Translations under genes and position numbers: made by a program
The notes under the pieces: generated by a model
What the model saw: the letters and a program-made list of their open reading frames with translations, nothing else
The model's database searches: none
Told to the model about the DNA's origin: nothing
NCBI GenBank assembly: GCA_019359125.1
Contig: JAHHHY010000019.1
Coordinates: 1-60,435, forward strand
Reading direction: 5' to 3'
DNA length: 60,435 nt
DNA from: Pleurocapsa minor GSE-CHR-MK 17-07R
Lineage (GTDB): Bacteria; Chloroflexota; Anaerolineae; Aggregatilineales; Phototrophicaceae
Part shown: piece by piece, positions 11,513 through 31,846 of the stretch
How the letters are laid out: each line of letters opens with the position of its first letter
Position numbering within the stretch: the first letter of the stretch is position 1

Positions 11513-13240
11513 CTAGTTGGCTATCAGCTCACCGATGACCGGGCTGCCCAGCAGCGCGTTGTTGCACGCCTGCACATCGCCGATGCCCTCGATCAGGCGA
11601 ACGGCCTCGAGCGGGGCATCAGGATTGAAATAGTTGTAGACCGTGCGCGACATTTCGCCAATCAGCGGCTCGCTCTGCTCAAAGTTCAGCCAGATGGGGC
11701 CGTGCATCAAGGTGACAATGACGTAGGCGCCGCCCGGCGAGAACACAATCGCTGCGTCGCCGTGCGTGTCATCGATCCAGCCATGCTTGTGCGAAATGGC
11801 GACATTGGCGGGCACGCCCGTCTCCAGCAGCACGCCGATCCGGTTGTAGTTCATCACGCTCAGCATCAGGCGGCATTCGTTGGGCGTAAACTGGTCGGGA
11901 TAGGTCTCCAGCAGCAGGCCGGAGCTGTTATAGGCGCACTGGTAGATGCTGTTCAGCAGCGCGCCGGTCTGCTCCACCGTGATCTGGTTATACGGGTCCG
12001 GCTGGGCAGACACCTGATCGGCATCGGTGCGGCGCGACAGTGGTGCCTGCGGCGTGATAAACGGGTCATTGGCGTAAGGCGTGAAGATGAACGACCGCTC
12101 CAGCCCAAGCTCGCTCAGCATGGCGCTCACGTCCTCGGCACCGGTGTAGGGATTGCCGCCGCCAATGGCCGACAGCATCTCGTTGGTGCTGATATTTTCA
12201 CTGCAGATCATGGCCTCGCCCATGGTCACGGCCTGGTCGTCGCGCAGCGGGGCTTCAAATGTGCGGAAGTAGTCGGTCAGGATGGCCAGTTTGTTCACGC
12301 TGGTGCCGCTGAAGGCGACATCTCCGCCGACGGAAATGGCCTCGCCGGTTTGCAGGTCCATCACGAAAAATGCGCCGAACCTGCTGGTGGCCGGGTCGAA
12401 CCCTGCCGCCAGCATCTGACTGAACAGATTATCGCCCAGTGCGGCAAATTCTGCTGAGACCGGGGGCGGGGCCGCCTGGCCGATGACGCTGGCCGGACGC
12501 CAGGCCGCTGGCGTCGGCGTGAGCGTGGGCAGCAGCAGGTCGGTGATGCTGGTGGCGGGCAGGCTGGTCAGGTCGCCCTCGATTTGCAGCAATTCCACAG
12601 CGACCCAGCCGAATCCGTTTGGCGACGGGGCATATTCCACCTGCACCCACGGCAGGGTGGTGTGCCACTGCGTGATGACAAAGACGGTGCCCGCCTGCAC
12701 CACGCCGATGCGCGGGTAGTCCACGCCGGGGCCATAGCGCACATTGATTTCGCCGGCGACGTTGCCAATGACCGATCCGGCAGGCGCGGGTGTCGCCGGA
12801 AGCGGCTCAGGCGTAGCACCAGGCGCGACTGCCGAGGCGGGCACATTCGCGGGTGACAGGGTGCCGGTGGCCTGCGGAGCCGGGGCAGGCGACCCGCCCG
12901 CCGCCCCGATTTCCTGGCTGGAGATCGGCACGGTTGCCAGATTGCCGCGCACGGTGACCAAATCGTTAAACACCCAGCCCAGAATTGTGCCATCGGCGGG
13001 GCTGGCGATCAGCACCCACGGGAAGAACTCGCTGCGTCCGACGATCGGATACTGCGTGCCGCTGTTGATCGTGCCCAGCAGCTCGCCCTCGACCGCGGCG
13101 ACAGAGCGAATATTGGCTGTGCCAATGGCTTCAGCGGTGACACCCGTCTGGGCGACGGCCACGGCCACCAGACACAGGACGAGCGTGGCCACGATCGAGC
13201 AGGCCAGAAAGAGCTTTCGCAGGCGCGTGATGGATGTCAT
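11513..13240 (-). CDS. Secreted SH3b plus class A beta-lactamase-fold protein
   Basis: The 575 residues comprise a signal peptide (about 1-31, ending VAVAQTG), an SH3b-like domain (about 35-100), a Pro/Ala-rich linker, a second SH3b domain (about 155-222, INVRYGPGVDYPRIGVVQAG), a TPTP linker and a C-terminal serine beta-lactamase/transpeptidase-like domain from about 265. The active-site SxxK is SVNK (Ser314, Lys317), the second motif is SEN (347-349) in place of SDN, and HKHGWIDD stands where KTG is expected. The SH3b domains suggest cell-wall binding. True beta-lactamase activity is not implied; this fold is common in cell-wall hydrolases of unknown substrate. Promoter and start are ordinary. 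Confidence 0.85.
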   Translation of the reverse strand: MTSITRLRKLFLACSIVATLVLCLVAVAVAQTGVTAEAIGTANIRSVAAVEGELLGTINSGTQYPIVGRSEFFPWVLIASPADGTILGWVFNDLVTVRGNLATVPISSQEIGAAGGSPAPAPQATGTLSPANVPASAVAPGATPEPLPATPAPAGSVIGNVAGEINVRYGPGVDYPRIGVVQAGTVFVITQWHTTLPWVQVEYAPSPNGFGWVAVELLQIEGDLTSLPATSITDLLLPTLTPTPAAWRPASVIGQAAPPPVSAEFAALGDNLFSQMLAAGFDPATSRFGAFFVMDLQTGEAISVGGDVAFSGTSVNKLAILTDYFRTFEAPLRDDQAVTMGEAMICSENISTNEMLSAIGGGNPYTGAEDVSAMLSELGLERSFIFTPYANDPFITPQAPLSRRTDADQVSAQPDPYNQITVEQTGALLNSIYQCAYNSSGLLLETYPDQFTPNECRLMLSVMNYNRIGVLLETGVPANVAISHKHGWIDDTHGDAAIVFSPGGAYVIVTLMHGPIWLNFEQSEPLIGEMSRTVYNYFNPDAPLEAVRLIEGIGDVQACNNALLGSPVIGELIAN

Positions 13241-23278: not shown

Positions 23279-24226
23279 GTGAACGACCTCGAAGAAGCTG
23301 TACTCAAGACTGTGCTGTATGCCGACATCTTCAGCTTTCCGCTGACAGCCGCCGAAATCCATCATTTTCTGATCGCTGACCGGCCGTATGCGTTGGCCGA
23401 TATTCAGGGCGCCCTGGAGTCGTCTGCTGCCCTGCGCGTCCACCTGGAACAGCGTGATGGCTTCGTGGCCTGCAAGGGCCGGGACGGGCTGGTGACGACG
23501 CGCCTCGAACGCGATCAGGCGGCGACCGCGCTGCTTCCCGCCGCGCTCTCGTATGGCCGTCTGCTGGCGGCCCTGCCGTTTGTGCGCATGGTCGGGCTGA
23601 CGGGCGCGCTGGCCATGCGCAATCCTGCTCATGTGACTGACGACATTGATTATGTGCTGGTGACAGCGCCCGGACGGGTGTGGACAGCGAGAGCGTTTGC
23701 GATTGTGCTGGTGCGGCTGGGCCGACTGCGCGGGGTCACGCTGTGCCCGAATTACGTGCTTTCCGAGACGACGCTCTCGCATGCCCCAGGCAACCTGTAT
23801 ATTGCCCACGAAGTCACGCAGGTGCTGCCGTTATTTGGCCGCGAAATCTATGATGCCCTGCGCGCTGAAAACCCGTGGGTGGCCGACTGCATGCCCAACG
23901 CGATGCATCCGTTTCATGCTGTGCCGATGAGCCAGCCGGGCACCGGCCTGCGCCTGTTGAAATCGGCGCTGGAGGCCCTTTTATCCGGCTGGCTGGGGGA
24001 TCGATTCGAGGCGTGGGAATTTCGGCGCAAACAGGCGAAATTCGCCGCCCAGATGCAGCAGCGCGAAGATCACGCCGCGCAGATCGATGCCGAGCGCGTG
24101 AAAGGCCATTTCAACGACCATGGCCATCCGGTGCTGCGGCAGTATATCGAGCGGCTGGCGCGCTATGGCCTGAACCACAGCTCACCACGCGATTATCGTA
24201 GCGCCGAAATGCCCGCCGCTGACTGA
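23279..24226 (+). CDS. Nucleotidyltransferase-fold protein with N-terminal winged helix
   Basis: This 315-residue protein (GTG start) opens with a winged-helix-like region (about 1-60, VLKTVLYADIFSFPLTAAEIHHFL). It then has a minimal nucleotidyltransferase motif: VGLTGALAMRNPAHVTDDIDYVLV (about 105-128), where Gly109-Ala110 replace the usual Gly-Ser and Asp122/Asp124 give the DxD pair. The rest is helical with no known domain. I recall similar proteins beside polysaccharide and membrane-protein genes of Chloroflexota. Catalysis is plausible but not certain because the Gly-Ser is altered. Its last 34 bases overlap the 3-prime end of the convergent glycosidase gene. Confidence 0.72.
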   Translation: MNDLEEAVLKTVLYADIFSFPLTAAEIHHFLIADRPYALADIQGALESSAALRVHLEQRDGFVACKGRDGLVTTRLERDQAATALLPAALSYGRLLAALPFVRMVGLTGALAMRNPAHVTDDIDYVLVTAPGRVWTARAFAIVLVRLGRLRGVTLCPNYVLSETTLSHAPGNLYIAHEVTQVLPLFGREIYDALRAENPWVADCMPNAMHPFHAVPMSQPGTGLRLLKSALEALLSGWLGDRFEAWEFRRKQAKFAAQMQQREDHAAQIDAERVKGHFNDHGHPVLRQYIERLARYGLNHSSPRDYRSAEMPAAD

Positions 24227-25584
24227 TACGACACGTTGCGCTGCGCGCCAGGCAGCTCGACGATACGTACTGCTCCGGCCACCACCACGAAACTCATGTC
24301 GATCATCTCTGCGCCCGGCGCCGGGATGACGGCGTTGTTGCCATCGCGCCCGGCCGGGATGATATTGCCTGGTGCGTCTGCGTAGGCCACCTCCGGCACG
24401 TCTCCCGCATTGATGAGGAAATTGCCGCCTTCGGTGCCTGTACTCCACAGGATGTAGACCGTGCGATCCCCAAACGAGGCTGTGACCATCGCGGCGCCGT
24501 TCGTCGCAAACTGGCGCACATTGCCCGCGCCCGTCAGCCGGCGAATCACCTGCTGATAGGCAAACCAGGCCGGGCGCAGCGAATTATCCGCGCGCATCAG
24601 GCCCCACGGTTCGCTGACACCGGGTGTGAAGTCGTTGTCCCACAGGCGATACACGGCCATGCGGTCGACACCCTGGGCCAGTGCCAGCGCCGCGGCCTGC
24701 ACGACGAAATCGGCCTGCTGTTCCAGCGACACCTGGAACGGTGAGCCGATACTCGCGGCCGGGTCACGCCGTGGGCTGGCGTTGAACTCGCTCATCCAGA
24801 TGTCTTTGTTTTGCAGGCCATAGGCACGCAGGATACGTTTGTTGGCCGCGATAATGTCGTCCACGCTGTCGGTCGTGAAGTAGATATGCAGCGAAATGCC
24901 ATCGAAATAGTAGCCATTGGAGCGGGCATTCGGGTCGCCGTTCAGCGTGCTCAGCAGGCGCGCCAGATACGGCTCGCGATAGGCGTTCACGTCATACCAC
25001 CACGTCAGGCCAGCCAGCTGCACATGCGCGCCGGGATCGACCGATTTGATGGCACGGTAGGCGGTCCGCAGCAGATTCGCATAGTCAGCCACCTCACCCT
25101 CAAATTCGACGATGCCTTCGCCAGCACGGATATCCGGCTCATTCCAGATCACCCAGTGATGCACGCCACGCGGGGCATAGGCCTCGACCAGGCGGCGCAC
25201 AAATGCCCCGAAGGTATTCGCGGGGTCGTCATGGGCCAGTTCGACACCAAACGGCAGTCCAGCCGGCGTCTGCGAGGCCGATGCCCAATGCGGCGTTGAC
25301 TTGATGACGCCGACGATCTGGCGATTACCCGCAGCGGCATCGGCCAGAAACTGGTCGGGCACGCTGGACGTGTCAAATTCATCCGGGCTGTTGGGCTGGA
25401 AGCGATTCCAGGCGAAGACGATGCGGTCCCAGGTGACGCCCAGCGCGGCGGCTTCGCCTGGCCGGTAGTACGACTCGATCGCGCCAAACACGCGCGACGG
25501 GTCGCTGGGCGGCTGGGCGGATACGGCCCCCACGACGACAAACAGCAGCAGGCACAGGCTGGACAGAAGGGATTTTGCTTTCAT
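24193..25584 (-). CDS. Secreted glycoside hydrolase, clan GH-A (GH39-like)
   Basis: The 463-residue product starts MKAKSLLSSLCLLLFVVVGAVSAQ, a signal peptide. The TIM-barrel has TWDRIVFAWNRFQP at strand 2, the acid/base Glu149 in VIWNEPD, and the probable nucleophile Glu266 in DIWMSEFNAS, the order expected for a retaining clan-A enzyme. Closest in style are GH39/GH5-type beta-glycosidases of Chloroflexota. The substrate is not readable from sequence. I preferred the ATG at 25584 to an upstream frame start that lies inside a terminator. It lies downstream of a second secreted glycosidase gene in the same direction. Confidence 0.85.
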   Translation of the reverse strand: MKAKSLLSSLCLLLFVVVGAVSAQPPSDPSRVFGAIESYYRPGEAAALGVTWDRIVFAWNRFQPNSPDEFDTSSVPDQFLADAAAGNRQIVGVIKSTPHWASASQTPAGLPFGVELAHDDPANTFGAFVRRLVEAYAPRGVHHWVIWNEPDIRAGEGIVEFEGEVADYANLLRTAYRAIKSVDPGAHVQLAGLTWWYDVNAYREPYLARLLSTLNGDPNARSNGYYFDGISLHIYFTTDSVDDIIAANKRILRAYGLQNKDIWMSEFNASPRRDPAASIGSPFQVSLEQQADFVVQAAALALAQGVDRMAVYRLWDNDFTPGVSEPWGLMRADNSLRPAWFAYQQVIRRLTGAGNVRQFATNGAAMVTASFGDRTVYILWSTGTEGGNFLINAGDVPEVAYADAPGNIIPAGRDGNNAVIPAPGAEMIDMSFVVVAGAVRIVELPGAQRNVSYQSAAGISALR

Positions 25585-25613
25585 GCGGTTGTTTTCCCGT
25601 GCGACGGTACGGA

Positions 25614-25650
25614 AAATAAAAAGGCGATCCCCTGTTTCCGGGGGACCGCC
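25614..25650 (-). terminator. Rho-independent terminator between the two glycosidase genes
   Basis: On the minus strand, GGCGGTCCCCC and GGGGATCGCC arms (25640-25650 and 25623-25632) form an imperfect stem with a GGAAACA loop, followed by TTTTTATTTT (25613-25622). It should end the transcript of the gene at 25675-27093. Confidence 0.75.
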
Positions 25651-25674
25651 CAACATCTTACCTGAAAATCTGGC

Positions 25675-27093
25675 CTAGCGCCGCATGACCGCCGCGAGGG
25701 TATCGCAGCCCGGGCACGAGCGGTCCGGACGGAACAGCGCGTAACCACCGGCCGGGTCGGATCCCCAGAACGGGAAGTCGACGTTCCACACGATCAGGAT
25801 GGCAACGCGGCCACTGTTAGCAGCTGCGACGGCTGCTTCGGCGATCCAGGTGGCCTGCTGCTGCACGGTCACGTTCTGGGCCCAGGCGAAGGCGCCGGGC
25901 AGCGGATCGTTGAAGCCCTGCGGAGACAGGTAGCCCAGCTCGGTGAAGCAGACCGGCTTGCCGCCAAACAGGTTGTAGCCACGGGCCAGCATCGAGCCGA
26001 AGTAGTAGGTGGGATAGTTGCCACGCGGGTCGCCGCTGCCGGCGGTGGGGCTCAGGATGCCTTCGTTGTAGTGCAGGCCCACGCAGTCCATATACTGGGC
26101 GGCACCGGCCGCAGCCATCTGCTGCATGAACACGTCGTCGTTGCAGCCGCCCGCCGCGCAGCCCGCCGCGCCGAAGAAGCCGGTCGGGGCAGGGGCACCG
26201 CTGATCACCAGCGTGTTCGGGTTGGCCGACTTGATGGCGTTGAAGGCCGCAGCCAGCAGACGGGTGTAGTTCGCACCGTTGATGCTGCCCGCAGGCCACT
26301 GACGGTCGATGTTGGGTTCGTTCCACACTTCGATAGCGTCGGCGCCAGCGCGGGCGACGTCAGCCACGAATGCGGCATACGACTGGATGTAGCTGTCGAA
26401 GTTGCCCATTTCACCGATTTCACCGGGGATGCCGATCAGCACCTTGAAACCCAGCGCGCGCGAGTTCAGGATGCCCGCGACTGCGCTGGCATTCTGGCCC
26501 AGGCGGAACACGTGCTGCTGCTTCACCCAGGTCATGCCCGAACGCTGCATCAGCGACACGGTGTTGGCGTTCATTTCCAGCGCATGGCCACCCAGCGCAA
26601 AGCCGCTGGCCAGCGCGGAACCCGCCACCGGCGGGGGCAGGTCGGGGTTGGTGACTGCCGGATCCACAGCGGCAGCTGTCGGCTCGGTCACTTCATCGCA
26701 GGTGGTGATGATGGTGGCATCGAAGCTGGAACGGCCTTCATACTGGCGGCCATCCAGCGCGGTGATGACGAAGCGCCAGCCGAAATACAGGCTGCGCGGC
26801 GATTCCACATTGGTCGAACAATCGTCGATACCATTGGTGAATTCGCGCTGTTCCCATTCGTAGTTGCGCAGAGGGCGCAGCGTGACATCGAAACGCTCTT
26901 CCAGCGCATTACGCACGCCTTCAAAAGCGCGCGTCAGCTGATCTGCGGGTGTGAAGGTGGGCTGAATCTCCTGTGCGGAGACGCGCGCCGCACTGAACTG
27001 GCCCATCAGCATCATGGCCGCCAAGAAAACGATGGCCATACTCACGACGCTGATATTCAACATTCGCCGCTTGTTTTGTGTTTGAGTCTGCAT
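25675..27093 (-). CDS. Secreted glycoside hydrolase-like protein, clan GH-A
   Basis: The 472-residue product has a signal or anchor segment (about 12-40). A small N-terminal domain follows (about 50-135) with two Cys (DDCSTN, ITTCDE) that may form a disulfide. A Pro/Ala linker leads to a TIM-barrel with Glu259 in IEVWNEPN and Glu385 in VCFTELGYLSPQ as putative acid/base and nucleophile. Extra Cys pairs (GCAAGGCND, SCPGCD) again suggest an exported, disulfide-bonded enzyme. ATG 27093 and TTG 27099 are both possible starts; AGGAGCAGGG lies just upstream. It is flanked by terminators and is probably monocistronic. Confidence 0.82.
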   Translation of the reverse strand: MQTQTQNKRRMLNISVVSMAIVFLAAMMLMGQFSAARVSAQEIQPTFTPADQLTRAFEGVRNALEERFDVTLRPLRNYEWEQREFTNGIDDCSTNVESPRSLYFGWRFVITALDGRQYEGRSSFDATIITTCDEVTEPTAAAVDPAVTNPDLPPPVAGSALASGFALGGHALEMNANTVSLMQRSGMTWVKQQHVFRLGQNASAVAGILNSRALGFKVLIGIPGEIGEMGNFDSYIQSYAAFVADVARAGADAIEVWNEPNIDRQWPAGSINGANYTRLLAAAFNAIKSANPNTLVISGAPAPTGFFGAAGCAAGGCNDDVFMQQMAAAGAAQYMDCVGLHYNEGILSPTAGSGDPRGNYPTYYFGSMLARGYNLFGGKPVCFTELGYLSPQGFNDPLPGAFAWAQNVTVQQQATWIAEAAVAAANSGRVAILIVWNVDFPFWGSDPAGGYALFRPDRSCPGCDTLAAVMRR

Positions 27094-27231
27094 ATGCAAA
27101 ACCCTGCTCCTGATTCCATAAACGCTGTCGAGGAATTCGTAATGACGAACTCTTGTGCCTGAATGCTACATAACATCTGGTGATTTTTCCATGCCCATAG
27201 GCAAAGCGTATGTTAAACGCGGCGCACGGGC

Positions 27232-27304: not shown

Positions 27305-29218
27305 CTAGCCCTTCACACCACCCAGCGACAGTCCGCCGACGATGAAGCGCTGGAACGAGAAGAACAGGATCATGATCGGCAGCGAAATCAGAATCGACAG
27401 CGCGGCGAACTTCTGCATGTCCGGCGGGGGCTGATTGGCACCACCGGTCAGCGTGGCCAGGGCCATCGCCAGCGTGTAGTTCTGCGTCTGGCCGGTCATG
27501 AAAATCCACGACAGGATGAATTCCGTCCAGCCGTTCATGAAGCTGAACAGAATGACGATGGCGAAAGCGGGCAGCGCCAGCGGAATCATGATGCGGATGA
27601 ACGTTTGCAGGCGTCCGGCCCCGTCGATGAGCGCGGCTTCTTCCAGCTCTTTCGGAATGGTGTCGAAATAGCCTTTCAGGTTCCAGATGGCAAATGGCAG
27701 GCCACCGGACGAGAAGGCCAGCGCCAGGCCGAGCAGCGTGGTCCTCAGCGTTTGCTGATCGCCGCGCACCAGCGTCAGGCGATACTGGAGCGTCGAGATG
27801 GTGAATGCGACCACCAGGAACGCCATCACCGAAAACAGCATGATGTTAAGCACTGTCCTGCGTTCGATCGAAGCGGGCAGGGCGCGCAGGATGAACCAGA
27901 TCACGGCAGAGACGGCCAGCGCCGCGGCCCATGCGCCCAGGATATACGGGGTCATCTGGAGCAGCGTGTTGGTCTGGATGCTGGAGTAGAATGCGCCATC
28001 TTCGTTCTGCGCGGTAATCGCCGCGTTCAGGGTGTCGACGGCGATAGCCAGGCTGGCGGCTGCGTCTTCTGCGCCCTGGCGGGCAGACACGGCGCCGTCG
28101 CGCAGGCTGGTCGCTTCTTCCTGGGCGGTGACCAGGCTCGCATCAAGGCTGGCGATTGCCGCGTCTGCACCATCGGCGTTCAGGGCTTCGAGTGCGGCGA
28201 CAGAGGCCACAACAGCCAGATCATCGGGAGCGATGCCGCTGCGCTGATCGATGACGGCCTGCAGCTCTGTCGCCAGTTCCTCAGCGGTTGTCAGCTCGGC
28301 CAGACGGGCCACTTCGGCGGCTGATTCCTCAGCGACTGTAGCGCGCTCTTCGCGGCGCGTGGCGGTGGTTTCGCGCTGGCCAACGCTTTGTGTGCGCTGG
28401 TTGACTTCGGCTTGCGCGGCGATCACATTGGCGCTGAGCTGATTCAGCGGCTGGCCGACCGCTTCATTGAACATCGGCGTGCGCGCAAACATCACGGCGA
28501 ACGTCACGATGATGGCCACCAGCGAAAAGGCGGCGACAGTGCCCACCACCAGCTGCGGCGGTGGATTAATGGCGCGTTCCAGGTCGCGTTTGCCATAGCT
28601 GCGCACCACCCCAAAGATAATCGCGACAATGCTGGCGACCAGGATGCCGGCGAAGATGCTGGGGAAGAATTCCGCCACAGTGGAGCTGATTTGTACGGCA
28701 TTAAACATGATATACAGCGGGATGATCACGCCGGTGCTGGGCAGCAGCAGCAGCACGATGAACATCAGCATGCCCGTCTGACGGCCGACGAAGCGGAAAC
28801 GCGAGAACGCGTACGCAGCAGACGAGCCAAGCACCACGGTGAAGACCGAGACGCCCAGCGCGATGAACAGGCTGTTCATCAGCATGTTGCCCACATAGGC
28901 CGAGAACGTGTTCGAGATCGGCTCGCTGAGCAACCGGCGGAAGGCATCCAGGTTGGCGTTGGCCGGGAACAGGTTCAGGTCTACCGGGCGGGCGATGCCG
29001 CGCGGGTCGATCGCCATCGACACGATCCACATGATCGGGAACATCACCACGATCAGCATGAGGAGGAGGAACAATTGCAGCAAAACCTGCCGGATAACGA
29101 TCCCGCGCGATTTTTTGTTCAGCACAAAGCGGCCGGTCGTCGCGCCCGCTCTTGACGCCACAGAGGGGGCAGCGGGGATGCCCTTGGCGGTGGGCTGTGC
29201 AGTGGCTTTCATAGTCAT
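27305..29218 (-). CDS. MalG-type sugar ABC permease with a 310-residue insertion
   Basis: The core is a normal carbohydrate ABC permease: TM1 (about 48-70), TM2 (112-138), TM3 (149-172), EAA loop EEAALIDGAGRLQTFIRIMIPLALP (about 526-550) and TM5-6 to the end. Between TM3 (PLYIMFNAVQIS) and TM4 (LLGLALAFSSGGLPFAIW) about 310 residues (179-493) are inserted in frame. They hold two membrane segments (about 185-205, 223-244), an Ala/Glu/Gln-rich coiled coil (about 255-405), then two more membrane segments (about 424-444, 455-476). Arg/Lys-rich turns (RSYGKRDLER, RALPASIERR) put the coiled coil outside. Usual family length is about 280-300. It is 23 bases downstream of its partner permease gene. 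Confidence 0.9.
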   Translation of the reverse strand: MTMKATAQPTAKGIPAAPSVASRAGATTGRFVLNKKSRGIVIRQVLLQLFLLLMLIVVMFPIMWIVSMAIDPRGIARPVDLNLFPANANLDAFRRLLSEPISNTFSAYVGNMLMNSLFIALGVSVFTVVLGSSAAYAFSRFRFVGRQTGMLMFIVLLLLPSTGVIIPLYIMFNAVQISSTVAEFFPSIFAGILVASIVAIIFGVVRSYGKRDLERAINPPPQLVVGTVAAFSLVAIIVTFAVMFARTPMFNEAVGQPLNQLSANVIAAQAEVNQRTQSVGQRETTATRREERATVAEESAAEVARLAELTTAEELATELQAVIDQRSGIAPDDLAVVASVAALEALNADGADAAIASLDASLVTAQEEATSLRDGAVSARQGAEDAAASLAIAVDTLNAAITAQNEDGAFYSSIQTNTLLQMTPYILGAWAAALAVSAVIWFILRALPASIERRTVLNIMLFSVMAFLVVAFTISTLQYRLTLVRGDQQTLRTTLLGLALAFSSGGLPFAIWNLKGYFDTIPKELEEAALIDGAGRLQTFIRIMIPLALPAFAIVILFSFMNGWTEFILSWIFMTGQTQNYTLAMALATLTGGANQPPPDMQKFAALSILISLPIMILFFSFQRFIVGGLSLGGVKG

Positions 29219-29241: not shown

Positions 29242-30510
29242 CTACGCTTCGTCAAACGCCTTCGTGGCGCGGGTGATGCGATTGTTGATCAGCGTGATGA
29301 TCAGCAGGATGAAGAACACGACGATGGAGAAGGCTGCCGCCACGCCATAGAGCTGTTCCTGCTGAATGAGCTTGTAGGACTGGGTGACCAGCAGTTCTGT
29401 CTGGCCTGCCGGGCCGCCCGACGTGATGAAGAAAATCACGTTGAACTGGTTAAATGTCCATACGGTGCCGAGCATGATCGCGGGCACCATCGCCGGGCGA
29501 ATCATCGGCAGCGTGATCTTGCGGAACTGGGTCCACTTGGTGGCGCCGTCCACGTCGGCCGCTTCATACAGGTCGGCAGGGATGCTTTGCAGCGCGCCGG
29601 TCGCGACGACCATCATGAATGGCCAGCCCAGCCAGATATTGGCCAGCAGCACGCAGTAGAACGCCAGCACCGGTGCCCCTGCGCGATCAAACAGCTTGAG
29701 GGCCTGATTGGAGGCGAAGCCGTTGTTGGAGATGACATCGAGGATGGTGCCCGCGGCCACTGCGCCGAACATGATGATGGCGCCGATGCTGAAGAAACCG
29801 CGCTGGGCGTCTAGCTTGCCCGTGGCCTTATTGATCAGCCCCAGACGGCGCGTGCGCAGCACCAGCCACACCACAATGATGATGCTGACGATGATGAGCA
29901 GGTAGGGCATGATGGGCAGCAGGTTGAATGGTCTGTCCTGCGACCCCAGCCAATTGGTGTTGACGGTGAAATTGGTGCCAAACCAGTTGTTGATCTGGGC
30001 AATCAGCAGGTTGAAGCCGCCGCCATTCTGCTGCCACAGGTTATTCCAGATGAGCGCGGTGATGTAGCCAGGCAGCGCCCAGGGCAGCACGAAAATTGCG
30101 CGATAGAAGCGGCGGAAGAGCACGCGCTCGCCATTGAGTGCGACGGCGACAGCGATGCCGATGGACGCGTGAAAGAAGACATTCACGATCGTCCACATGA
30201 TATTAAAGCCAAGCAGCGGCAGGAACGCGTAATTGGGCACATTCAGGTTGCCGGTAAAAACATTGACAAAATTTTCGAGGCCCACGTACGCGGCCGGTGC
30301 GCCGGTCAGATTTGGCGCCCTGAAATCGCGGAACGAAATCAGGATCTGATAGGCCTGGGGCAGAAAGGTGATGAAAACCATCAACAAAATAGACGGGACA
30401 ATAAAGAGCCAGGGGACGCCGCTGCTGCGCAGACCTGCCTTCAGGCTGTCCCACATACTCGACGGTTGGCTGGACGGTGTGCTGGTTACGGCTGACATAG
30501 GATGGCCCAT
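29242..30510 (-). CDS. MalF-type sugar ABC permease with two extra TM segments
   Basis: The 422-residue permease has TM1 (about 33-58), the core segments TM2 and TM3 (about 104-125 and 135-156), an EAA loop LYEAADVDGATKWTQFRKITLPMIRP (about 315-340) and the closing segments. Between the loop NTNWLGSQDRPFN and the TM starting APVLAFYCVLLANIWLGWPF about 80 residues (196-276) are inserted: a membrane segment (197-218), the basic loop RTRRLGLINKATGKLDAQRG, and another segment (239-260). The place matches the insertion in the partner permease. Either of two ATGs, 30510 or 30498, may start it; GGAGGAG touches the first. No ATPase gene is adjacent, so a shared MsmX-type ATPase is likely. Confidence 0.9.
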   Translation of the reverse strand: MGHPMSAVTSTPSSQPSSMWDSLKAGLRSSGVPWLFIVPSILLMVFITFLPQAYQILISFRDFRAPNLTGAPAAYVGLENFVNVFTGNLNVPNYAFLPLLGFNIMWTIVNVFFHASIGIAVAVALNGERVLFRRFYRAIFVLPWALPGYITALIWNNLWQQNGGGFNLLIAQINNWFGTNFTVNTNWLGSQDRPFNLLPIMPYLLIIVSIIIVVWLVLRTRRLGLINKATGKLDAQRGFFSIGAIIMFGAVAAGTILDVISNNGFASNQALKLFDRAGAPVLAFYCVLLANIWLGWPFMMVVATGALQSIPADLYEAADVDGATKWTQFRKITLPMIRPAMVPAIMLGTVWTFNQFNVIFFITSGGPAGQTELLVTQSYKLIQQEQLYGVAAAFSIVVFFILLIITLINNRITRATKAFDEA

Positions 30511-30625: not shown

Positions 30626-31846
30626 CTACATGCCGTCGATGCCGGTCTGGATGGCTTCGTAAGCGGCGGTAGCAGCTTCAGCCGGCGTCTGGCCGCCCGA
30701 GCCCACGGCTTCGATGGCCGCGCCCATGGGGCCCCAGAACTGGCTCAGCTCAGGACGGTTCGGGAACGGCGTGCCGAGGGCAAACTGCTCACCAAAGACG
30801 ACCAGGTTCGGGTTTTCAATTTCCACACCGCTGTTGACGGGCAGCAGGCCGCCTTCAACCGCGGCGATCGTCTGGCCTTCGACGCTGGTCACGCAAGCGG
30901 ACCAGTCAGCGAATGCAGCGAGCTTGGCTTCATCTGCACCAGCCGACGCGCTCATCATGAAGCCTTCGCCCTGGGAGAACAGCGCGGGAACGTTGCCGTT
31001 GTCCAGTGCGGGCATCAGCGCCACACCCAGGTCATCACCCAGGTCGCTTTCGAACTGAGCCAGGTTCCAGATGCCGTCGTACACCATAGCGACGGTACCC
31101 TGCTGGAAGCCGGGGTTCGGCGAGGAGCCGTCGATCACGACACCGCTGGCGGTATCCTGGCCGAGGGCATACATGTCAGCATGCAGCTGCAGGTAGGCTT
31201 CCATCGCGGCGAAGCCTTCGGTCTCCGGGGCGAACGCGGCGTTGCCATCGGCATCCATCAGGGCGCCATCGAGGGAGTACAGGAAGCCCGCGCTGTGGAA
31301 GAAGCCGTTCTGGAAGGCCAGGCCGGTCACGCCGTCCTGAGCGAGCTCGGCCGAGATGGCCAGCACGTCAGCCCAGGTTTCGGGCGCATCGGGAACCAGC
31401 GCACGGTTGTAGAAGAAGGCGAGGGTCTTGGCGCTGTATGGAACGCCCCAGATGTCTTCGTTGTAGCTGAACAGGCCCCAGGCGGTTTCGCTGGCATTGG
31501 CGCGCAGTTCGTCAGTCACGATCGAGGTCACGGGAGCAATCAGCTCGCTGTTGGCGAGTTCGCCGGCCCAGTCGTTCGCCCAGATGATCATATCCGGGCC
31601 TTCGCCCGAACCGATAGCAGCGCGCACGCTGTCCTGATAGGTATTGCTGGGGTTGAACACCTGCTCAACCGAGACGCCGTAGTCCGACGCGCAGTAATCG
31701 ATGAGGGCGAGCAGAGCATCGCCTTCAGCGTCCTGCTTGGCATGCCACAGCACCAGCGACGTGGAATCCTGGGCTGCCACCGAACCTACTGCCATAGCGG
31801 CGAGCATTGCTGCCGCCGACAAACCCACTAAACGTTTAGCCTTCAT
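30626..31846 (-). CDS. Sugar ABC transporter substrate-binding protein (MalE-like)
   Basis: The 406 residues begin with a signal peptide (KRLVGLSAAAMLAAMAVGSVAAQ) that has no lipobox Cys. The type I solute-binding fold follows: VLWHAKQDAEGDALLALIDYC, GEGPDMIIWANDWAGELANSELIAPV, GVPYSAKTLAFFYNRALVPDAPETWADV (a very typical cluster B region) and FGEQFALGTPFPNRPELSQFWGPMGAA near the end. The acidic ligand-site residues and Trp suggest an oligosaccharide. Without a lipid anchor it is either free in a periplasm-like space or held by the permeases, which have unusual outer domains. AAGGAG lies nine bases before the ATG. Confidence 0.94.
   Translation of the reverse strand: MKAKRLVGLSAAAMLAAMAVGSVAAQDSTSLVLWHAKQDAEGDALLALIDYCASDYGVSVEQVFNPSNTYQDSVRAAIGSGEGPDMIIWANDWAGELANSELIAPVTSIVTDELRANASETAWGLFSYNEDIWGVPYSAKTLAFFYNRALVPDAPETWADVLAISAELAQDGVTGLAFQNGFFHSAGFLYSLDGALMDADGNAAFAPETEGFAAMEAYLQLHADMYALGQDTASGVVIDGSSPNPGFQQGTVAMVYDGIWNLAQFESDLGDDLGVALMPALDNGNVPALFSQGEGFMMSASAGADEAKLAAFADWSACVTSVEGQTIAAVEGGLLPVNSGVEIENPNLVVFGEQFALGTPFPNRPELSQFWGPMGAAIEAVGSGGQTPAEAATAAYEAIQTGIDGM

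Follow-up and report, generated by a model that had tools for sequence, protein, structure and literature searches.

A MalG-type permease split by an inherited insert with a predicted outer helical stalk

The stretch of DNA that we analysed (the window; 60,435 nucleotides), from an uncultured bacterium of the Chloroflexota, encodes a MalG-type permease in which a large insert occupies the outer loop between core transmembrane segments (TMs) 3 and 4. The insert is inherited, and the insert-bearing MalG is a real and unusual architecture within a known family. Among type I ABC importers, that for maltose is the textbook case, with a permease core regarded as invariant. In the window, MalF and MalG have each acquired membrane helices where their two ancestral half repeats meet, in one case together with a predicted outer rod of about 9 nm, and the orthologues of one family retain these added helices. 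The genes are ordered malE, malF and then malG on the minus strand, and the main features are as follows.

30626 to 31846, minus strand: MalE-type binding protein of 406 residues, with a signal peptide without lipobox and a net charge of about -45.
29242 to 30510, minus strand: MalF-type permease of 422 residues, with its own insert of two TMs (about 70-80 residues, at about residues 195-275).
27305 to 29218, minus strand: MalG-type (CUT1) permease of 637 residues, assigned from Pfam, NCBIfam, alignment to solved chains and Foldseek.
27742 to 28684, minus strand: the MalG insert (residues about 179-493) in the outer TM3/TM4 loop of the core, placed from alignments, relatives and motif spacing.

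The malG frame has no internal stops. Its match to PF00528 (BPD_transp_1) scored 50.3 bits, above the cut-off of 26.4, and is confined to about residues 436-626. The NCBIfam MalG model PRK10998 aligns in two stretches, and the solved MalG and SugB chains flank the insert, aligning to about residues 43-177 and 494-637. The alignments also contain both an EAA loop (EEAALIDGAG) and a MalG-like C-terminus (GGVKG). Because the PRK10998 score of 121 bits is below the equivalog cut-off of 261, we call the protein MalG-type and do not equate it with E. coli MalG itself. When the full AlphaFold2 model was compared with MalG and SugB using Foldseek, the top ten matches had E values of 1.2e-6 to 1.1e-5 with a probability of 1.00. 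Target TM-scores were 0.76-0.85 for the top 13 chains, showing that the model contains the six-TM core fold of solved MalG and SugB; the query TM-scores of the same matches were 0.34-0.37 and the overall rmsd was 5-21. Most core blocks of the model have a pLDDT above 90. In the type I sugar importer encoded here, this protein is the MalG half. The best profile for the window MalE is that of MalE (116 bits, short of the cut-off of 291), and an alpha-amylase gene adjoins malG in two of three loci of a second family described below, which suggests a maltodextrin-like substrate.

The window also contains other genes. Downstream of malG are two genes with apparent signal peptides (24193-25656 and 25675-27099, both minus strand). 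The first gives a weak match to a glycosyl hydrolase catalytic core (26.4 bits, cut-off 21) and the second has no Pfam match. About 14 kb from malG, a gene at 11516-13240 (minus strand) encodes a protein with SH3_3 and a beta-lactamase fold, and a homologue of it occurs just past malG in 9 of the 12 family loci compared (locus L041 left out).

The insert runs from window position 28684 (residue 179) to 27742 (residue 493). As a measure of spacing we used the number of residues from the AYAFSR motif at the end of TM2 to the EAA loop. This survey of named genomes covered 80 loci of 159 confirmed relatives, of which 65 loci could be measured and 15 could not; the sample was picked by similarity and cut off at 80, and is not a census. 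The spacing was 74-88 residues at 58 of the 65 measured loci and about 393 residues in the window MalG, a net excess of about 310. Longer spacings were observed in four Chloroflexota (103-106) and an Oscillochloris MAG (144). Only two measured loci carry the stalk insert, with spacings of 394 and 715. These are L048, an Anaerolineae MAG (JAEURB010000259.1) whose protein is the same as that of G028 from the window's genus, and L049, a Chloroflexi groundwater MAG (JACRBG010000046.1) whose MalG is identical to that of G408. In the regions fetched from the window's own genome, 12 other permeases have the AYAFSR motif and 11 of these have spacings of 75-85. The twelfth, the MalG at L141, has a spacing of 131 and two extra TMs in the inner TM2/TM3 loop. 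The two-part alignment, the PF00528 match and the motif spacing bear out the claim of the initial annotation that an insert of about 310 residues splits a normal MalG core. The frame is open in 14 genomes and, in the four pairs tested, dS (which is saturated) greatly exceeds dN, so the insert is not a product of chance or artefact.

Four hydrophobic segments, at about residues 187-205, 224-242, 426-444 and 456-474, persist in a hydropathy average over 14 sequences. The short loops within each TM pair are basic (mean K+R of 3.6 and 2.6 over the 14 sequences), and the middle of the insert, with 175 residues (174-185 over the 14), is acidic (mean D+E of 29, K+R of 14). These charges match what is expected for the inside and the outside, respectively. 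We modelled the whole MalG with AlphaFold2 from 36 sequences, 3 of which have the stalk insert (mean pLDDT 82.9, pTM 0.65), and the insert alone from 3 sequences (mean pLDDT 72.2, pTM 0.50). The predicted parts of the insert are given below.

28484 to 28684, minus strand: first TM pair (a and b), residues about 179-245, from hydropathy; helices 179-216 and 221-245, pLDDT 58-83.
28298 to 28477, minus strand: stalk arm 1, helix 248-307; pLDDT 60-77 in the base up to residue 260 and 90-95 above it.
28349 to 28402, minus strand: best-conserved stretch of the stalk, residues 273-290, from conservation over 14 sequences.
28172 to 28285, minus strand: stalk tip, two short helices, residues 312-349; pLDDT 85-92.
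27881 to 28168, minus strand: stalk arm 2 and TM c as a single helix, residues 351-446; pLDDT 90-96 to residue 410, then 69-79.
27770 to 27862, minus strand: TM d, helix 453-483, from hydropathy; pLDDT 57-64.

In the whole-protein model, most of the stalk (residues 261 to 410) has block pLDDT values of 90-96 and the four added TM parts have values of 57-83. The insert-alone model repeated the stalk at 91-96 (one block at 84) and gave poor TM parts (35-69). Hydropathy, charge and these models support an insert consisting of two TMs, an outer antiparallel helical hairpin with a small tip, and two more TMs, and about 175 residues are predicted to sit outside as a rigid hairpin of this kind. With arms of about 60-66 residues each, at 1.5 Angstrom per residue, the stalk would be about 90-100 Angstrom (about 9 nm) long, a length that comes from arithmetic and not from coordinates. 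The earlier proposal that the core is normal and that the number of added TMs is even is supported by the alignments, relatives, charge and AlphaFold2, with modest confidence in the added TMs. The proposed outer coiled coil is likewise supported, with an outer part closer to 175 residues than to the 150 first claimed. A hydrophobic period of 3.5 residues was the strongest tested in both arms; its strength was matched by 311 of 2000 shuffles in arm 1, which is not significant, and by 28 of 2000 in arm 2.

Searches for kin of the insert returned little. Pfam and PHROGs gave just scattered weak matches to known domains among 14 members, the insert profile matched generic coiled coils among PDB sequences with an E value of 0.035 at best, and Foldseek of the insert alone gave zero matches at E <= 0.001. 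The highest Z from VIA-align was 11, for helical hairpins that included colicin, below the mark of about 13 that the tool sets for helical models. The shape is a common one; VIA-align shows no kinship, nor does the weakness or lack of a match establish a new fold. The insert profile also weakly matched an MscS-family protein (L187; 61 positions) and a DUF4349 protein (L189; 114 positions) at 18-24 bits, which probably reflects composition. An origin of the two TM pairs by internal duplication was considered and is unsupported (hhalign probability of 9.6).

The geometry of the model bears on one possible role, that of a regulator in which the stalk senses the state of the wall or the occupancy of a partner and gates transport. 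Helix 351-446 spans from the stalk to the membrane unbroken and could pass a signal. There is no signalling domain inside, and the cytoplasmic loops of the insert are just 14-18 residues long. We consider this role very unlikely.

We followed the insert in the window's own family (f1), in a second family of the same order (f2) and beyond. A query with residues 179-406 located the insert in 14 of 98 f1 genomes, from 4 of 24 genera. An insert profile matched 18 of 154 genomes of the order; 17 of the matches are MalGs (14 in f1 and 3 in f2) and the 18th (G512) is an MscS-type channel. A search with the C-terminal core at E <= 1e-38 reached 23 of the 154 genomes. The insert was present in all orthologues so found in f1 (14 of 14) and in f2 (3 of 3), and the TM3/TM4 site was without it in six genomes of two other families (one in f62 and five in f6). 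Close relatives with an uninterrupted gene would speak against the insert; in this search, insert-less permeases turned up in other families only. Across the phylum, the insert profile matched 4 of 400 genomes, namely the window's own genome and three with partial matches. Two of these three partial-match loci were read (G569 and G580; G835 was not) and neither encodes a permease that carries the EAA motif. In the class, a search of 396 genomes with a single sequence gave two matches, the window's own genome and one of its genus.

The insert-bearing MalGs of f2 are larger (ORFs of 889-943 residues in three genomes). These proteins (L049/G408, L185/G487 and L186/G490) have homologous TM pairs and a stalk at the same site (profile E of 1e-16 to 5e-8) and, unlike the window MalG, have about 285-340 further residues after TM d. 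In one of the three, the G490 MalG (L186:3727-6393, minus strand), the outer part contains a PDZ domain at residues 596-634 (PF17820; 33.9 bits, cut-off 27). PDZ is a protein-binding fold. The core tree groups the f62 row, which is without the insert, with f2 as its sister (99/93) and therefore requires two changes. Since the f1 and f2 inserts are homologous, one gain and one loss, or else transfer, is likely, and a single gain followed by a loss is the simpler reading.

We then compared constraint on the insert and the core. The stretch corresponding to window residues 179-495 has 317-329 residues in all 14 orthologues, and this length is kept while identity to the window drops to 30%. The orthologues average 35-39% pairwise identity in the insert (35% in the stalk and 38-39% in the TM pairs) compared with 73-81% in the core. 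In four pairs, the dN/dS of the insert is about 0.08-0.26, with dS saturated, and dN in the insert is four- to sixfold that in the core. It is well supported that the core is far more constrained than the insert, yet that the insert is under purifying selection and not decaying. An alternative that these rates address is that the insert is loop filler without a role, tolerated at a permissive junction. The higher non-synonymous rate would fit this, as would the f62 relative that lost or never gained the insert and the other inserts that the junction takes (a two-TM hairpin in L053 and a short Cys loop in L055, L056, L066 and L081). Against this, the frame, length and hydrophobic pattern are kept in all 14 family orthologues found and the dN/dS values are low, and we regard a roleless filler as highly improbable.

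The partner subunit has a related feature. MalG is built as a 3+3 TM repeat, and MalF TMs 3-8 correspond to MalG, as is argued in the accessible text of PMC3654945. The MalG insert lies exactly at the junction of the two ancestral three-TM repeats, and the two-TM insert of the window MalF is located at the equivalent junction. This MalF hairpin is found in all 13 complete MalFs of the insert-bearing f1 genomes; in the contig of L035, the remaining genome, malF is in two frames. The hairpin is absent from the three f2 MalFs and the one f62 MalF read. Among the 46 frames with an EAA motif in the fetched regions of the window's genome, two more MalF-type permeases, at L137 and L147, appear from their sequences to have TM inserts at the 3+3 junction.

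These observations raise the possibility of a membrane-side module, where the extra MalG and MalF helices stabilise the core or recruit a membrane partner and the stalk is secondary. The gain of TM hairpins by both subunits at pseudo-equivalent sites and the inserts of L137 and L147 are consistent with this. However, the TM pairs are barely more conserved than the stalk, and f2 keeps the MalG insert though it lacks the MalF insert. We think that such a module is an unlikely main function.

The survey also turned up other unusual permeases. The L147 protein (L147:7072-9039, plus strand; the window's own genome, C22) is a MalF-type permease of 656 residues in which the EAA loop is preceded by 13 hydrophobic segments instead of the usual four. 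It has about nine extra TMs, most apparently at the 3+3 junction. The L137 protein (L137:4270-5421, plus strand) is a CUT1 permease that appears to have an extra TM hairpin at this junction, and the one at L155 (3807-5477, minus strand) seems to have its hairpin in the first outer loop. Two further CUT1 permeases at L141 (4579-5742 and 5628-6773, both plus strand) also read as having extra hairpins, in the first outer loop of MalF and the inner TM2/TM3 loop of MalG. Outside this genome, MalG-type permeases from a WOR-1 MAG (L085; 479 residues) and a Mesoaciditogaceae MAG (L090; 933 residues) appear to have large inserts in the TM1/TM2 outer loop.

The initial annotation suggested that the insert could dock the binding protein, or span or sense the cell wall. 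The reading that we rank first, tentatively and at somewhat less than an even chance, is that the stalk is a docking post. Next to the translocation gate, the stalk would project outwards by about 9 nm and keep an extracytoplasmic partner near the gate; the likeliest partner is MalE, which is highly acidic and not lipidated. Contact would be made at about 4-6 nm from the membrane, through a patch that is conserved and mostly basic, and the four extra MalG helices and the MalF hairpin would seat and stiffen the post. Consistent with docking, malE, malF and malG are side by side in all 14 insert-bearing family genomes, the insert length is kept, the stalk is confidently predicted and the insert is acidic outside with basic inner loops. 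The position of the stalk, the 3.5-residue period and the enlarged outer part in f2, with PDZ in one of three, also fit. There is a precedent in E. coli, where the outer loops MalF P2 and MalG P1 bind MalE, according to the available portion of PMC3150292. The stretch at residues 273-290 has an identity of 0.54 over 14 sequences compared with 0.35 for the stalk average, and a mean charge of +2.2 in an otherwise acidic stalk, set against the MalE charge of about -45. On the other arm, the stretch next in conservation (residues 375-400) is at the same level along the stalk.

Other observations weigh against a docking post. The conservation of residues 273-290 was reached by 218 of 5000 column shuffles, so this patch is only mildly exceptional, and its charge varies from -1 to +5 among the 14 sequences. 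The facing stretch (residues 375-400) is acidic (-2.7). In f2 the patch is kept in part, as scattered R/E. The stalk evolves fast relative to the core, the period in arm 1 is not significant, and the added TM helices are modelled at modest confidence and poorly in the insert alone. MalE also does not travel with the insert. The one neighbouring binding protein in the second family is 24% identical to the window MalE and lipoprotein-like, and at two f2 loci, L185 and L186 (G487 and G490), malF and malG have no malE adjoining in the stretch read. At L185, a 395-residue ORF lies beyond malF on the opposite strand.

A further point against docking is that, in this genome, importers without the insert also have binding proteins that are comparably acidic and mostly unlipidated. 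The window MalE, matched by two solute-binding profiles of Pfam, has only 7 K+R, and 10 other binding proteins of its genome have computed charges of -34 to -52. A pattern test on the 37 SBP_bac_1 frames of the genome found 34 with a signal-like stretch and no lipobox-like pattern, two flagged for a lipobox (one of them doubtful since an AxA-Q site follows) and one with an unresolved start. This rarity of the lipobox was unexpected for a phylum considered monoderm. We also considered that the stalk substitutes for a lipid anchor by retaining a lipobox-less MalE. This was rejected as a specific explanation because insert-less systems are equally without lipobox and because the second-family MalE at L184 is lipoprotein-like even though its MalG bears the insert.

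A fixed-length spacer offers a possible though rather doubtful alternative, which we rank second. Such an envelope strut would reach into or through the wall and anchor the importer or carry proteins at its tip, without binding MalE, and it explains the kept length and drifting sequence about as well as a docking post does. A length held constant under sequence drift is ruler-like, and the spacing between the inner TM segments is close between the families (167-175 residues in f2 and 183 in the window) at about 19-29% identity. The additional outer residues of f2, once with PDZ, are also compatible with a strut. According to the accessible text of PMC13319060, the phylum Chloroflexota is regarded as monoderm, with layered envelopes in some members. 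By contrast, Pfam recognised no wall-binding domain in the window MalG, and conservation peaks in the middle of the stalk and not at its tip, which is no better conserved than the stalk average (0.33 versus 0.35).

If the rod docks the binding protein or anchors the importer in the wall, this bears on how importers of bacteria regarded as single-membrane retain their receptors, most binding proteins of this genome being without a recognisable lipid anchor. More broadly, though we hold it as a possibility to be doubted more than believed, the type I sugar importers of this Chloroflexota order may have evolved a docking stalk in which membrane grafts at the 3+3 junctions of both subunits fix the distance between the gate and the binding protein or another envelope partner, and this junction may be a general graft site in ABC importers. 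As a tolerant graft site, the junction would be useful for engineering.

E. coli/Salmonella MalG (PDB 2r6g chain G) and mycobacterial SugB share the core halves, the EAA loop and the C-terminal GG-VKG with the window MalG and, unlike it, have no TM3/TM4 insert. A search of the literature that covered few subscription papers found no description of such a MalG insert. The initial annotation stated that such an element is absent from MalG, which is true of the E. coli type. The statement needs qualifying for Thermotogales, whose MalG1 and MalG2 have a hydrophilic region of about 500 residues, of unknown function, between TM1 and TM2, as described in the available text of PMC2246101. This is likewise a large extra region in MalG, but it lies in a different loop and is described as hydrophilic, whereas the window insert has four hydrophobic segments; the L090 protein looks similar to the Thermotogales form. 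In E. coli, MalF P2 is another large outer insert of a MalFG subunit, and it touches MalE (PMC3150292, in the part available). P2 is in the loop that joins MalF TM3 to TM4, which corresponds to MalG TM1/TM2 (PMC3654945, from the same accessible text), and is described with beta-sheets, whereas the window insert is helical, brings its own TMs and is at another site, between MalG TM3 and TM4. The MalG of the Oscillochloris MAG (L053) has an insert at the same site as the window MalG, consisting of one two-TM hairpin of only about 60 residues, and falls on a different branch of the tree. The f2 MalGs have homologous TM pairs and stalk and, unlike the window MalG, are accompanied in their operons by a MalF without the hairpin.
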